From: an uncultured Winogradskyella sp.
GTDB taxonomy: Bacteria; Bacteroidota; Bacteroidia; Flavobacteriales; Flavobacteriaceae
Length of the DNA stretch: 64,000 bases
Assembly (NCBI RefSeq): GCF_947498005.1
Contig: NZ_CANMIW010000001.1
Coordinates: 124,001-188,000, forward strand
Direction: 5' to 3'
Made by a program: the position numbers and the translations under genes. The notes under the pieces were generated by a model. That model was not told where the DNA came from and searched no databases. It saw only the letters and a list, made by a program, of their open reading frames with translations. This document shows positions 33,237 through 42,586 of this stretch, in pieces; position 1 is the stretch's first letter; each line of letters begins with the position of its first letter.

Positions 33237-34289
33237 TTATTCATAGTTTTTTATGTAATTGAACGCTTTCAATCCTAAAAAGACTAATAGCATAAGTACT
33301 AAAGTTAAAACCGGAAATAATAACACATAACGTTGCCCTATACTTTTGTCTTTTTTTCCAATTTTATCAAAAGATGATAATACATCATAGTATGTATTCT
33401 CTTCTGCTACCATAAGGTTCAACTTGTTTAGGTTTCTTCTAATTTCCTGTTCTTTTAAAAATAAATCATATTCTTTTGTTGCCGTTTTCTCCTCTTGAAC
33501 TGGTAATGCGCTACCAACTTCTAATGAAAATTTTGGATTTTTAGAATCGTTTTTAATAGCTTCTAAATACGTTTTTTGAATGCTGTCCAATCGATCTAAT
33601 TGCATATTCAGTGACTTTCGCTCTATATAAGCCAAAGTATCTCTAACTTTCTTTTGGTGCTCAGAATAATTATTAATAAAAGTATTTTTAAAACCCTCAT
33701 TTAAAAGCGAAAAAACATCAATTTTGTTAGATTTTGCGGTTATTGTAAACACTCTACCAGACATAAGGTCCCTTTTCTCTAAATAATCCTTATAATTGAG
33801 TTCATCAACTAAAGATGTATCTATAGACATAACATATTCATCATATTCAATAAACAAGTCATTTTGAGTTTCTGGTCCTGCCTTCAGCTCAAAACTCACA
33901 AGCTGACTAGCATCATTTTGTTCTATTTCAAAAATTTGTGATAACTCAGTATGGTTCTTAGACGTTATTAATTCATTAAAATAATTAATATTTGTAGCTA
34001 ACTGATATTTAGAATCAAAATTTGGCTTTACAATCATTTCAGAGTAATATATTGGCTCACCTGATTTTTGCAAAACATATCCTAATATCGCAGTAATAAC
34101 AAGCGCAGCTGCAACGATTTTAAAATGTACTACCAAAGGCTTGATGGCATAGATAATTGCTGAGAAAATGCCTTTAAATATGCGACCAATAAAAGCAAAT
34201 AATTTCTCAAATAATTTGCCAATAGCATTAAATAATTGCCCTAAATCAACCTCTTCGCTTTGTGGTTGTTGTGGTAATTTTTCACTCAT
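33237..34289 (-). CDS. Wzz-like polysaccharide co-polymerase
   Basis: A 350-residue protein with a cytoplasmic N-terminal part (residues 1-50, amphipathic), a membrane segment about 52-75, a periplasmic domain to about 318 rich in coiled-coil sequence, and a second membrane segment VLLFPVLTLVLMLLVFLGL near 320-342. This two-segment layout is that of Wzz chain-length regulators. No proline-glycine rich second-segment motif like the enteric one was noted, and no kinase domain is fused. Sits upstream of rfbC at the right edge of the locus, three bases after the DUF6909-like gene. Confidence 0.7.
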   Translation of the reverse strand: MSEKLPQQPQSEEVDLGQLFNAIGKLFEKLFAFIGRIFKGIFSAIIYAIKPLVVHFKIVAAALVITAILGYVLQKSGEPIYYSEMIVKPNFDSKYQLATNINYFNELITSKNHTELSQIFEIEQNDASQLVSFELKAGPETQNDLFIEYDEYVMSIDTSLVDELNYKDYLEKRDLMSGRVFTITAKSNKIDVFSLLNEGFKNTFINNYSEHQKKVRDTLAYIERKSLNMQLDRLDSIQKTYLEAIKNDSKNPKFSLEVGSALPVQEEKTATKEYDLFLKEQEIRRNLNKLNLMVAEENTYYDVLSSFDKIGKKDKSIGQRYVLLFPVLTLVLMLLVFLGLKAFNYIKNYE

Positions 34290-34292
34290 GTG

Positions 34293-35975
34293 TTATGAAT
34301 TAAATATTTGTTCTAATATCTTTTTTGTAATCACGTATGTTGGTTTTACACCTGATGTTCCTAAACCTCCAGATGCTAATGTGCTTCCTGTTTCTAAAGG
34401 ATTATCTGAAGCATAATACGCATATCTTACCTTCACGTCTTCATTAATACTACCTCTAACTCGAGATGCTGCTTGTATTGCTTTTTGATAATGCGCTCCT
34501 TCCATCTCTAATCCAATAACATTCCATGTAGAATTCTTAAAGAATTTCAAGATTTCTTTGTTTTGAAGTGAAGTTCCTAAAACAGTAACCATTGTTCCTT
34601 CATAAACTGATACACCACAATCTAATAAATCATCTTTGCTCAATTCATTTTTAAATGGATAATTGTCAGCTGTTCCCTCAAAAATATGAGCAGTAGGTAT
34701 CATAACGTCTCCCTTTCCTCCTTCTAAGATTCCGGCTTTACCCATTATTGAAATAGATTTCACATCTAAATGCACCTTTTTACCATCAACCTTCATTGGT
34801 TTTAAAAACTCATCTAAGGTTTCATAAGCTTGTTCTCCAAAAGCATAATCCATCACAAAAATTACAGCTTTATCTTCTACCTTCTCTTCTAAATATTTAA
34901 ATTCTGATTTTGAAAAATCAATCTTATCTGTATCAAAAATCTGAATGTCAATATTAGTTCCAGACGTATCCTTTATCTGAATCATCCCATTTTGCAACGC
35001 TGATTTCTCTACTTTATTGCGTAATGCTGAATTTTTTGAGTTACTTAAATCTTCATAGGTATCAAAAATATCCTTTTTTGCGTCTGCACCTTTTAATGTG
35101 CCTTTTGCAAATAATGAATTCATTACACTGTGCATATTTGCACTAATAATATGAATTGGTCGCTCTAACAAATCATTTTTATGTAATTCAGATTTAATGG
35201 TGTCTGCCCAAGCTTCTCCATGTATATGATGCCCTAAACGTTCTCTTAAAACAGGACTAAAAGTAATAGTTCGTTTGTTGTTATTTACCGTTTCTTCAAT
35301 GGCTAATTTACCTAACCAGTACACTATTTGAAGTAAACGCTCAGGTTGCGTATCTGTGGCAAATTTTGGATAAGCTTCCGTTAATTCATTAAACGTTCTA
35401 CCAAGAATATTAGCTGTATGTGTTATTGCAATTTCGCGTTCTTTTTGAGTTAGTTTTTTAGTTGACGTTACAGCACTTTCTAACTTTTTCCAATCTCTTA
35501 CTGTAGTCCCTTCTTCATCAATTAAAACACGCTTGCTAATTTTATGAGATTCTACAAACAAGAAGGTTAAGTGGGTTAAAATATCATAAATCTCAGAACG
35601 ACCTCTTGTAATTTCAATATTCATTTGCTCATCGTCTATTCGATAACAATTTCTCCTTCTTTTAGGTGGAATTATAGCTTTAAAATGCGAATTTGCATAA
35701 CCTTCATCACTCGTAAGATTAATAAATGTGCACTCTTCAATACCATGAGGTAAACGGTCTACAACATAAAGTAAGCCTTCTAACTCTGCCTTTTCTTCTC
35801 CTATAGAACCATAAATTTCTGGACGTAAAAGCAATAACGCTTCACGTAATGTTTCTCCAGAAACTCCCATGGGTTTATAGAAACCACGATTAAAAAGATG
35901 ACGCATAGTTATATACATTCGTTCTATGGCGCTAGAGCTTTCTTGTGCTCTGGTTCTTTCGTGTTTTTTCTTCAT
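34293..35975 (-). CDS. DUF6909-like protein with phosphorylase-like C-terminus
   Basis: A 560-residue soluble protein with a long, partly basic N-terminus (ERTRAQESSSAIERMY). I recall similar Bacteroidota proteins as DUF6909; the name is tentative. The C-terminal ~230 residues resemble a nucleoside phosphorylase fold: IMGKAGILEGGKGDVMIPTA, then VIGLEMEGAHYQKAIQAAS near 485-505, where the Glu-Met-Glu motif matches the ribose-binding motif of purine/MTA phosphorylases. The order phosphorylase-like motif then ASDNPLETGS is also seen. Function unknown. It lies between the GH3 gene and the Wzz-like gene; a link to polysaccharides is not established. Confidence 0.6.
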   Translation of the reverse strand: MKKKHERTRAQESSSAIERMYITMRHLFNRGFYKPMGVSGETLREALLLLRPEIYGSIGEEKAELEGLLYVVDRLPHGIEECTFINLTSDEGYANSHFKAIIPPKRRRNCYRIDDEQMNIEITRGRSEIYDILTHLTFLFVESHKISKRVLIDEEGTTVRDWKKLESAVTSTKKLTQKEREIAITHTANILGRTFNELTEAYPKFATDTQPERLLQIVYWLGKLAIEETVNNNKRTITFSPVLRERLGHHIHGEAWADTIKSELHKNDLLERPIHIISANMHSVMNSLFAKGTLKGADAKKDIFDTYEDLSNSKNSALRNKVEKSALQNGMIQIKDTSGTNIDIQIFDTDKIDFSKSEFKYLEEKVEDKAVIFVMDYAFGEQAYETLDEFLKPMKVDGKKVHLDVKSISIMGKAGILEGGKGDVMIPTAHIFEGTADNYPFKNELSKDDLLDCGVSVYEGTMVTVLGTSLQNKEILKFFKNSTWNVIGLEMEGAHYQKAIQAASRVRGSINEDVKVRYAYYASDNPLETGSTLASGGLGTSGVKPTYVITKKILEQIFNS

Positions 35976-36008: not shown

Positions 36009-37511
36009 TTATTTAGTCAGATTAAATTGGTGTAGATGGTCTGCAATTTTTCGGTCGTTAGAGAGTCTTGGTATTTTATTTTGTCCTCCCAATTTTCCTA
36101 TTGATTTCATATAAGTTTGAAATCCATCTTTTTTAATTTTTGTAATCTTTAAAGGCCTTAAAACTTTCCCGTCTATTAAATCTAGATAATACGAATTTTG
36201 TTGTTTTAATGACGTTTCTAAAGCTTCTATTAATTGCGGTTCATTTTCTGGTTCGTTTTCAAATTCTATTAACCACTCATGATATGGCAAGCCTTCTTTA
36301 GGGTTAATTTGTGGTGCAACGGTAAATTCGTTTACCGAAATTGAGGTGTTTTCTGTGGCTTCTTTTAAAGCCTGTTCTACTTCTTTTCCTATAACATGTT
36401 CCCCAAAAGCCGAAATAAAATGTTTTATTCTTCCACTTACAATCACTCTATATGGTTTTAGTGATGTAAACTGAATAGTGTCTCCAATATTGTATGCCCA
36501 AAGACCAGCTGTTGTAGAAATAATCATAACATAATTTACGCTTAACTTTACATCTGCAATAGTGATACGTTTTGGGTTGTTTTCAAAAAAGTGTTCTGCT
36601 TCTATAAATTCATAAAAAATTCCTGAATCTAACTGAAGTAACATGCCTTTTTCATTTTGTTTATCTTGAAATGCAAAAAACCCTTCACTCGCAGGATACA
36701 ATTCTATACTATCTACTTTTCGTCCTATTAAGTTTTCGAATTTTGCTCTGTAGGGCTCATAGTTTACGCCTCCAAATATGAAAAGATTGAAATTCTTAAA
36801 AAGGTCGCCAACGTTTTTACCCGACTTCTCAATCAATTTTTCAAAATACATTTGTACCCATGATGGAATTCCAGAAATGATACTCATATCTTCATTTATG
36901 GTTTCCTCTACAATAGCATCTACCTTGGTTTCCCAATCCTCAATACAATTGGTCTCTAAGCTTGGCATTCTATTTTTTTGAAGATATTTTGGCACATAAT
37001 GCGCTACAATACCAGATAATCTTCCAAGTTTAATTCCATGTTTCTCCTCTAAAATTGGACTTCCTTGAAGAAATATCATTTTACCATCTACAAATTTTGC
37101 ATTACCTGTTTCATGAATATACATTAATATAGCGTTTCTAGCAGCATTTACATGTGTAGGCATGCTTTCCTTGGTAATAGGAATATATTTTGCACCAGAG
37201 GTCGTCCCAGAGGTTTTTGCAAAGTAAATGGGCTTCCCTTTCCATAGGATATCTTCTTCACCGGCAACTACACGCTCTACGTATGGTTTTAATTCTTCGT
37301 AATCTCTTACTGGAACATTGTTTTGAAAATCTTTAAAAGAAGAAATTGAACTAAAATTATGATCTTTCCCAAAAGCGGTATGCTTTGCTTCTCCAATTAA
37401 ATTTTCAAATACTTTTTGCTGTGTTTCAACAGGTTTTGAAGACCATTTTTTAATGGATTTATAAACACGTTTTGCAAATGGTTTTGCTAGAGCTGCTTTT
37501 AATGATAACAT
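36009..37511 (-). CDS. GH3 family acyl-adenylating protein
   Basis: A 500-residue protein of the GH3 (auxin-responsive promoter) superfamily. AKTSGTTSGAKYIPITKESM is the ATP loop, VNYEPYRAKFENLIG and ELYPASEGFFAFQ the middle motifs, and IGDTIQFTSLKPYR with KHFISAFGEHV the C-terminal hinge. Plant members join amino acids to acyl acids; the bacterial role is unknown. It opens the leftward series toward the DUF6909-like and Wzz-like genes. ATG start. Confidence 0.88.
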   Translation of the reverse strand: MLSLKAALAKPFAKRVYKSIKKWSSKPVETQQKVFENLIGEAKHTAFGKDHNFSSISSFKDFQNNVPVRDYEELKPYVERVVAGEEDILWKGKPIYFAKTSGTTSGAKYIPITKESMPTHVNAARNAILMYIHETGNAKFVDGKMIFLQGSPILEEKHGIKLGRLSGIVAHYVPKYLQKNRMPSLETNCIEDWETKVDAIVEETINEDMSIISGIPSWVQMYFEKLIEKSGKNVGDLFKNFNLFIFGGVNYEPYRAKFENLIGRKVDSIELYPASEGFFAFQDKQNEKGMLLQLDSGIFYEFIEAEHFFENNPKRITIADVKLSVNYVMIISTTAGLWAYNIGDTIQFTSLKPYRVIVSGRIKHFISAFGEHVIGKEVEQALKEATENTSISVNEFTVAPQINPKEGLPYHEWLIEFENEPENEPQLIEALETSLKQQNSYYLDLIDGKVLRPLKITKIKKDGFQTYMKSIGKLGGQNKIPRLSNDRKIADHLHQFNLTK

Positions 37512-38926: not shown

Positions 38927-39907
38927 TTACTTAATCGTTATGGACTTAATCATAGCTTCGAGTTCAAAAATATAATCTCGCTTTGGTAGCGATGGTGCAT
39001 ATACATAGCCATCTGCTAATAAATACCTGTTATTAATTTTATCTTCTATGGCGTAAGTAATAAATGGACCTGCCATACTGTAGCCTTGCATGTCCCACAT
39101 TCCTCTTACTTCGTAAGCTGGTTTATTGTCTATAATAGTTTTAAACAAAGAAGGTACATATGCATCTTCTACAGCCATATAGATACCGTCTTCTCCAGGG
39201 ATTTTAGTTTTAGTAATATTATCTCTCATCTTTATAATATCTACTATAGTGCTGTCGCCTTGAGAAATGGTTTCCATTGGCACTTCATATAACATAAGTT
39301 CAATGGTTTTTGAGTTTTTAAGGTTTTTACGGATCCAGTAAAAATCTTCTTCTGCCTTACTAATTCTATATGCTGAAGGAATATCAATAGTTATACCTAA
39401 TTGATCTTCCATTTCTTTATCAGTTAATAAAGAAAGATTAATACGTCTTAATTTTTCTTTTACTTCTTCTTTATTAAAAGCATCGAATATTTTATCACTA
39501 TTCTCTTTTAATTGATCTATAATCTCTTGATTAGTTTTACCACTAACAACAGCAACCGTTTGCGGTTTGGCATATACGTCATTTACAATCTTTGTCGCTG
39601 CTTCTAAATCTCCTTTTTCAATTTTTAAAACAATTCTATTTCTGGCTGCAAAACCATCAAAAACCTGTGGTGGTATTTGCCTCATGCCAAACATAGGTTC
39701 TTCAGTCGGTAAACCATTTAATGGTGCTGCGAAAATATCTCTAATAGATTCTCCTACACTGTCTTCCCATAATACATTATCAGCAACTATAGATATTGTG
39801 TTTAGATTTCCGTTAGAATCTGGTAAATACATTTTGCTATCCTTTTTATCTGACTCGCCACAAGCCAATAGCAATACGCTTAATAATACGGTATAAAACG
39901 CTTTCAT
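38927..39907 (-). CDS. DUF4837 family lipoprotein
   Basis: A 326-residue lipoprotein: leader MKAFYTVLLSVLLLACGES with the lipidated Cys near residue 16. The body contains FYWIRKNLKNSKTIELMLYE, and RGMWDMQGYSMAGPFITY near the C-terminus, both of which I recall as DUF4837, a Bacteroidota family of unknown function. It is likely a periplasmic or outer-membrane protein. Immediately upstream in the same direction is the LysM transglycosylase gene, 21 bases away, so co-transcription is likely. Confidence 0.85.
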   Translation of the reverse strand: MKAFYTVLLSVLLLACGESDKKDSKMYLPDSNGNLNTISIVADNVLWEDSVGESIRDIFAAPLNGLPTEEPMFGMRQIPPQVFDGFAARNRIVLKIEKGDLEAATKIVNDVYAKPQTVAVVSGKTNQEIIDQLKENSDKIFDAFNKEEVKEKLRRINLSLLTDKEMEDQLGITIDIPSAYRISKAEEDFYWIRKNLKNSKTIELMLYEVPMETISQGDSTIVDIIKMRDNITKTKIPGEDGIYMAVEDAYVPSLFKTIIDNKPAYEVRGMWDMQGYSMAGPFITYAIEDKINNRYLLADGYVYAPSLPKRDYIFELEAMIKSITIK

Positions 39908-41617: not shown

Positions 41618-42586
41618 TTAATTTGGTATAAAATAAAAAACCGGTGAACTTCTAAAGTTTGGTTCACCAGCTATATTTGTTTTAGTAACTTCTCCGTTGT
41701 TAGTATTTATTACACCTGTTTCATTGCGACCATCACCTCTATCAAAATATTCAAAAGCGTTGTCTGCTTCATCATATCCAATGGATGAATGTCCTAAAAA
41801 CGAATAACCATCTGTAATGTCATATAGAATATTACCTTGTATGTTAGCTAAATACTCGTGCGTTTCGTAATTAATTATCTTTCTCCCAATTATATACTTA
41901 CCTGTAGAATTACCAAAACCTTGAAAGAAATTAAAACTAAAATTTGTGTTTTCACTAATGAGTGTAAATGAATTTAGATCTACTAACTTTATTCGTTTTA
42001 ATGACGAATTAAATACACTTTCCATTAAAATTAAAGTATCATCTTCAAAAAACGTACTGAATTCAATTCCATATCGATCCATTCCAAAATTTGCAGTAAT
42101 ATTTCTTTCTAAAACTTCCGATCCATTTTCAAAAGTTTTTAAAACTGCATTGTAATCACTGAGACCAAAAATTGCGTGAAACCTACTTTCAGATTCAAAA
42201 TAGATTTCACTTATAAGATCCTCATTTTCATTAAATGTAATTATGGACTGTTGTGGTGTATAATAGTATTCTTCAGAACTGAATAACTCTGATAAATTAA
42301 TTTTATTAAGAGTTACATTGTTTGAGAAATCATTTCTGGTAATAAAAAAAATCTCATTTGTATTCTCATTATTATAATAACCTAGAATACCCAAAATGCT
42401 ATTTTGCGAATATATTTTTTTTATAACCTCATTTGATTGGTCACCAATAAATACAACATCGCCATCATAACTAAACAACACTTTATATCTCACATCCAAC
42501 GCTCCATTTGATGAAGAATCATCACTAGAAGAGCATCCCAAAGACAAGAATAGAATACTAAAAAATAAAATTCTATATAAACTCAT
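41618..42586 (-). CDS. Hypothetical lipoprotein
   Basis: A 322-residue protein with a lipoprotein leader (MSLYRILFFSILFLSLGCSS, Cys 18) and a Ser/Asp-rich linker typical of Bacteroidota surface lipoproteins. The mature part is rich in beta-strand-like alternation and aromatic residues and ends in RSSPVFYFIPN; no recognised motif. A beta-propeller is possible but not shown. Located nine bases from pgk, transcribed in the same direction, so it may ride on the pgk transcript. Confidence 0.75.
   Translation of the reverse strand: MSLYRILFFSILFLSLGCSSSDDSSSNGALDVRYKVLFSYDGDVVFIGDQSNEVIKKIYSQNSILGILGYYNNENTNEIFFITRNDFSNNVTLNKINLSELFSSEEYYYTPQQSIITFNENEDLISEIYFESESRFHAIFGLSDYNAVLKTFENGSEVLERNITANFGMDRYGIEFSTFFEDDTLILMESVFNSSLKRIKLVDLNSFTLISENTNFSFNFFQGFGNSTGKYIIGRKIINYETHEYLANIQGNILYDITDGYSFLGHSSIGYDEADNAFEYFDRGDGRNETGVINTNNGEVTKTNIAGEPNFRSSPVFYFIPN

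Follow-up and report, generated by a model that had tools for sequence, protein, structure and literature searches.

DUF6909, a putative AMP-nucleosidase-like protein family that may stand in for Amn in lineages of the Bacteroidota

The DUF6909 protein encoded in a 64,000-nucleotide stretch of Winogradskyella DNA (the window) is best explained as a two-part, AMP-nucleosidase-like enzyme, whose PNP-fold domain would cleave a purine nucleotide, most probably AMP, by hydrolysis of its N-glycosidic bond, and which would replace the AMP nucleosidase Amn in the Bacteroidota lineages that carry it, a reading to which we assign a probability of about 0.5, marginally on the favourable side. In the mechanism that we propose, the C-terminal PNP-fold domain would convert AMP into adenine and ribose 5-phosphate by hydrolysis, with D524 protonating the base, M491 and E492 holding the sugar and N280 lining the pocket, and the N-terminal part would supply the phosphate contacts that Amn takes from R381 and K436.

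Results

Family membership and predicted fold

The gene lies at positions 34293-35975 of the window on the minus strand and encodes 560 amino acids, according to the open reading frame list and its translation; translation of the plus strand across this interval meets many stops. The bounds given by an earlier, sequence-only reading of the window were exact. The protein matches the Pfam family PF21850 (DUF6909, "family of unknown function") over nearly its whole length, at 222.8 bits against a gathering cut-off of 27, as do all 43 aligned relatives, and shows no difference from that family, to which no function has been assigned; the word DUF6909 was not found in the literature searched. Its score for PF01048 (PNP_UDP_1), 14.7 bits over residues 402-495 (E 0.02), falls below the gathering cut-off of 25.1, and the same model matches 16 of the 43 relatives at E up to 1, with a best E of 0.0015. 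DUF6909 is single-copy in the genome of the window, and the nearest of its 80 named relatives come from Winogradskyella, the remainder belonging to Flavobacteriaceae or near kin. Searches of PDB sequences with the query protein and with a profile returned chance-level matches only. A role in defence was set aside on finding no PADLOC match, and none of 43 pattern matches to possible viral relatives was confirmed.

Table 1. Features of the DUF6909 gene, its product and its neighbours, in window coordinates
Feature	Position	Strand	Basis
DUF6909 protein, 560 aa	34293..35975	-	PF21850, E 8.9e-66
C-terminal PNP/UP-fold domain, residues 254-560	34296..35216	-	AlphaFold2 model, Foldseek, VIA-align
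N-terminal part, residues 1-250; possible distant kin of Amn N-terminal domain	35226..35975	-	Conservation; weak profile match; model poor at 1-62
H249/H250, placed on Amn H188/Y189 (phosphate, apposed chain)	35226..35231	-	Hand mapping by motif order; low-confidence model stretch
N280, right after the domain's first strand (274-279), placed on Amn N205	35136..35138	-	Hand mapping; invariant in 43
GKAGIL glycine loop, residues 412-417	34725..34742	-	Alignment of 43; motif counts
EGTADNY, residues 433-439, common to Bacteroidota-type Amn (GEGTSDDY)	34659..34679	-	Sequence/profile comparison; motif counts
GLEMEG, residues 488-493; M491/E492 placed on Amn M404/E405	34497..34514	-	Alignment of 43; hhalign register
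ASDNPL, residues 522-527; D524 placed on Amn D428; SDxPL motif	34395..34412	-	hhalign register; alignment of 43; motif counts
GH3 acyl-amido synthetase family protein, upstream of DUF6909	36009..37511	-	PF03321; operon-like context, own family only
Wzz-like membrane protein, downstream of DUF6909, 3 bp gap	33237..34289	-	No Pfam match; name read from sequence

An AlphaFold2 model built with 44 sequences reached a mean pLDDT of 74, with the blocks of residues 254-560 mostly above 70 and with residues 1-62, 90-109 and the joint at 240-250 poorly modelled; the single-sequence AlphaFold2 model (mean pLDDT 34) was of no use. The top Foldseek matches in the PDB are uridine phosphorylases (UP; E 1e-6), and an AMP nucleosidase, 2guw_B, stands at rank 5 (E 2e-6). 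VIA-align superposes 197-239 residues, all within 243-560, onto UP, DeoD, MTAN and futalosine hydrolase at Z 17-18 and rmsd 2.7-4.0 Å; no Amn chain is among its best 50 rows, which excludes nothing. The second Foldseek row for Amn, 2guw_C, covers 480 columns at rmsd 20 and therefore lends no support to the N-terminal part. The nucleoside-phosphorylase-like C-terminus that had been proposed from the letters of the DNA is thus upheld by a predicted fold related to PNP, and the extra N-terminal part, which had been put at 330 residues, shrinks to about 250, since the PNP-like part begins near residue 254. The reaction catalysed cannot be told from this modelled fold alone.

Active-site motifs and the relation to Amn

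The motif in which a likeness to the EMEG of purine and MTA phosphorylases had been noticed, GLEMEGAHYQKAIQAAS (residues 488-504), proves to be more than chance, given the PNP/UP predicted fold and 11 positions that are invariant in the alignment of 43 relatives (G488, L489, E490, M491, E492, G493, Y496, Q497, K498, A499 and Q501). Two features of the PNP superfamily, a [DE]ME motif and an Asp after the last strand, are present as E490-M491-E492 and D524, all of them invariant in the 43 members, as is N280; the [DE]ME motif also occurs in DeoD and MTAN.

PMC9584410 places in the Amn active site N205, R381, W383, M404, E405, D428 and K436, together with H188 and Y189 of the apposed chain. We mapped these residues onto DUF6909 by hand, guided by the order in which strands and motifs occur and, at the final two motifs, by the hhalign register (Table 1). 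H250 is invariant in the 43 relatives and H249 is not. Amn R381, W383 and K436 have no evident partner in DUF6909.

Motif counts, which are descriptive because the motifs were picked after looking at the sequences, separate DUF6909 from Amn in one respect and join the two in others: TT..R.W, which holds the phosphate/base residues R381 and W383, is found in 53/60 Amn but in 0/132 DUF6909 proteins; SDxP[LM] around the catalytic Asp is present in 132/132 DUF6909 and 59/60 Amn proteins, in 0/30 PunA, DeoD and MTAN proteins and in 0/73 members of a wider, overlapping PNP-superfamily set from which two non-PNP ORFs had been removed; and GT[AS][DN][DN]Y occurs in 130 of 132 DUF6909 proteins, 32 of 39 Amn of the Bacteroidota type, 0 of 21 of the proteobacterial type and 0 of 30 others. 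Amn of the Bacteroidota type (TIGR01721/NF005500, about 260 aa) has GKxGxL, EGT[AS][DN][DN]Y, [DE]ME and SDxP[LM] in common with DUF6909, and the two are complementary in distribution; this type is without an N-terminal part and has TT..R.W (38/39), DUF6909 being the reverse on both counts. The proteobacterial type (PF10423 + PF01048, as in E. coli) resembles DUF6909 in carrying an N-terminal part before the PNP domain, reads SDKPL around the Asp, and has H, N, ME and D active-site residues that can be mapped by hand onto DUF6909. UP, DeoD PNP, MTAN and futalosine hydrolase share with DUF6909 the predicted fold and the PNP-superfamily Asp, whereas those examined are without SDxP[LM], GT[AS][DN][DN]Y or such an N-terminal part, all of which DUF6909 has. 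As a separate observation, family f23 and some other families of the phylum (L235-L247) carry an Amn of about 395 aa with a short, divergent N-terminal part and 37-44% identity to E. coli Amn.

These residues bear on whether DUF6909 could be a true phosphorylase, converting a nucleoside and phosphate into base and ribose 1-phosphate. UP and DeoD carry GDPxR, a phosphate-binding motif, after the first strand. The best-scoring solved structures, being uridine and purine nucleoside phosphorylases, speak for such an activity, which nevertheless appears quite improbable: the first strand of the DUF6909 domain ends in ISANMH, which includes N280, not in GDPxR; none of the phosphorylases examined had SDxPL; and the window's genome already has three other PNP-superfamily genes, one PunA-type, one DeoD-type and one of UP-like length and start. 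The earlier proposal of a phosphorylase-like protein with a nucleotide or sugar-phosphate signal or salvage role accordingly holds as far as nucleotide metabolism, which is the best reading, and gives way on the chemistry, a hydrolase being favoured over a phosphorylase by SDxPL, by N280 in place of GDPxR and by the absence of any genome common with Amn in the samples.

Direct comparison of sequences and profiles gave faint signals. A BLASTP alignment of the query protein with one Bacteroidota Amn brought GKxGxL..GDxxxPxA..EGT.D.Y into register (E 0.002 for that single comparison). The Amn profile gives DUF6909 proteins up to 8.9 bits (4.1 for shuffled sequences) and the PunA profile up to 8.6 (4.7). 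When the columns of the C-terminal profile were shuffled 120 times, the real score was reached by 2 shuffles with Bacteroidota Amn, 2 with PunA, 3 with DeoD, 10 with proteobacterial-type Amn, 12 with all Amn together and 71 with MTAN, and profile comparison cannot separate Amn from PunA as putative kin of DUF6909. The Amn models of NCBIfam (TIGR01717, TIGR01721, NF005500 and NF006142) have no match at E up to 1 in the 43 DUF6909 members; because neither these models nor the R381/W383 feature is found in it, we do not class DUF6909 as Amn, and regard it as a putative variant, most likely acting on AMP.

A conserved N-terminal part

Residues 9-142 are conserved like the catalytic core, with a mean identity of 0.81 against 0.79 at residues 371-560, and 42 of 134 positions are invariant there in 43 sequences, against 74 of 190 at 371-560; invariant Arg, His and Lys are plentiful in the N-terminal part. 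Such strong conservation is unlike the N-domain of Amn, which PMC9584410 describes as more variable. Among six profile sets, the N-terminal part matches best the beginning of the N-domain of proteobacterial-type Amn; the match lies at the corresponding end and is weak, 6 of 120 shuffles having equalled it; with Bacteroidota Amn, itself without such a domain, 13 of 120 shuffles were as good. PF10423 does not match the query protein at E up to 1. We infer that the N-terminal part may take part in substrate binding.

DUF6909 and Amn across Bacteroidota genomes

DUF6909 is present in 30/30 of the genomes listed for the window's own family, and looks like a core gene of the Flavobacteriaceae; it also occurs in some other Bacteroidota. 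In a draw of 296 genomes from the phylum, DUF6909 was found in 43, and Amn (TIGR01721, E <= 1e-40) in none of these 43 as against 120 of the 253 others, 17 shared genomes being expected. A draw of 395 genomes from the class, which overlaps the first, had DUF6909 in 32 and Amn (E <= 1e-20) in 0/32 against 261/363 others, with 21 shared genomes expected. Taken together, the draws hold 52 DUF6909 genomes, none of which is among the 261 Amn genomes. That no genome is common to the two suggests that they do the same job; the corresponding Fisher values (2e-11 and 6e-17) are overstated because the exclusion follows clades. Ten weak rows of the Amn search (E 1e-4 to 1e-9) were excluded from the Amn count; six of the ten lie in DUF6909 genomes, and two of these six, in G000 and G226, share coordinates with a DeoD-type gene. 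A possible counter-example in G368 matches the MTAN and DeoD profiles, not Amn, and its sequence looks like that of a futalosine hydrolase.

The pattern within families is better evidence than the Fisher values of the whole draws. Among the genomes listed for family f5, DUF6909 occurs in G064, G158 and G178 and Amn in G037 and G162, and among those listed for f8, DUF6909 occurs in G076, G111, G194 and G273 and Amn in G049, G146, G186 and G583. Matches of PunA-like and UP-like score and length are present in both kinds among these 13 genomes. Family f51 has seven DUF6909 genomes and one Amn genome among those listed. Family f95 was dropped as support, since most of its genomes have neither gene: nine of 38 carry DUF6909, three Amn and 26 neither, so that it is no clean swap and its zero overlap is uninformative (P 0.43). 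In a tree of 50 rows, the DUF6909 proteins of f2, f5, f8, f51 and Persicobacter each make up one side of a branch, and those of f95 are nested among Flavobacteriaceae (supports 99/97 and 96/88), a position that points to a possible transfer.

No swap of amn for DUF6909 at a shared locus was seen in f5 and f8, where the Amn gene lies elsewhere. MTAN as the replaced enzyme gave no pattern: it was present in 3 of 73 genomes, and one of the three carries DUF6909. PF10423, the N-domain of proteobacterial Amn, has no match in the 296 genomes of the phylum draw.

Apt would salvage the adenine released. At E <= 1e-15, no Apt match was obtained in 19 of the 43 DUF6909 genomes, among them that of the window, or in 18 of 29 Amn genomes. 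Since so many genomes of both kinds are without a match, adenine salvage by Apt is not a general purpose of either enzyme here; each more probably serves to lower the AMP pool or to make ribose 5-phosphate. In one genome, the apt reading frame (G021:C20:18258-18749) has six in-frame stops and is likely a pseudogene.

Neighbouring genes

In the window's family, a common order is M23 - GH3 - DUF6909 - Wzz-like - RmlC. When recognised homologues of the window's genes are counted, the next gene upstream of DUF6909 is GH3 in all 80 named loci, and the next downstream is Wzz-like in 64 and RmlC in 14; on the same strand, the nearest ORF of at least 100 aa lies at a median distance of 27 nt on the upstream side and 7 nt on the downstream side (78 loci each). 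Neighbours were compared at 40 of the 43 phylum-draw loci: GH3 comes next upstream in 25 of the 28 own-family genomes and, on the same strand, in 0 of the 12 loci from other families, one of these 12 having a 32%-identical GH3 relative on the opposite strand. Elsewhere, the neighbours include a peptide methionine sulfoxide reductase in f8, GH65 and a HAD hydrolase in f5, and in Persicobacter a mechanosensitive channel. The association with polysaccharide and GH3 genes, which the sequence-only reading had taken as a hint of function, is therefore real within the window's own family and not retained outside it, and the polysaccharide link describes a local arrangement, not a function, because other families have other neighbours. 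The upstream GH3 belongs to the plant-type acyl-amido synthetase family PF03321 and is not a glycoside hydrolase.

This context bears on two further explanations. GH3 enzymes are an AMP-releasing class. DUF6909 could be a PNP-fold nucleotide or nucleoside hydrolase for which AMP is not the substrate, its N-terminal part setting the specificity; candidates include an alarmone, a different NMP, a modified purine nucleotide and an adenylate connected with the GH3 enzyme encoded next to it. The constancy of the GH3 gene in the named loci, the absence of Amn's R381/W383 motif and the very conserved N-terminal part with its many invariant basic residues argue for this, whereas the mutual exclusion with Amn in the samples, which suggests a shared job, and the failure of the GH3 neighbour to persist outside the window's family argue against it, and we consider it rather unlikely. 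Alternatively, the PNP fold might bind a nucleotide without catalysis, the protein serving as a sensor or regulator of envelope polysaccharide genes. The operon-like position, with its short gaps and its Wzz-like downstream neighbour, would fit; the catalytic-type residues M491, E492 and D524 are, however, invariant in the 43 relatives and other families do not retain the gene context, making such a role very improbable. An AMP-nucleosidase-like hydrolase remains our preferred reading.

Several further features of these loci were recorded. The window's GH3 gene, of the plant-type acyl-amido synthetase family yet present here in a marine bacterium, is linked both to DUF6909 and to a gene for an M23 peptidase. 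Farther along, a DUF4837 protein gene (38927-39907) and a gene for a 322-aa protein without a Pfam match (41618-42586) belong to the same run as those for a LysM/SLT protein and phosphoglycerate kinase. The locus of Flavobacteriaceae bacterium MAR_2010_72 (L082) reads GH3-GH3-DUF6909-Wzz and then a mirrored Wzz-DUF6909 near the contig end, probably an inverted-repeat assembly artefact. Two Persicobacter strains (L163 and L164) carry the DUF6909 gene on replicons that are recorded as plasmids and are non-mobilizable, and in the one with annotation the mechanosensitive channel gene adjoins it.

Discussion

Beyond its resemblance to AMP nucleosidase, DUF6909 may represent a third class of PNP-superfamily nucleotide N-glycosidase, so far unrecognised, in which the N-terminal part, and not the Arg, Trp and Lys of Amn, would build the phosphate pocket, and which would control the adenylate pool, or cleave a related signal nucleotide, across the Flavobacteriaceae; we advance this broader proposal tentatively, at somewhat less than even odds. 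On the reading of DUF6909 as an AMP-nucleosidase-like enzyme, a family of unknown function, present in every listed genome of the window's own family, gains a testable function, and those genomes, in which no recognised AMP nucleosidase was found, gain a candidate to fill that gap. Confirmation of a different pocket would show that a single fold came to cleave AMP with two distinct phosphate sites in the course of evolution.
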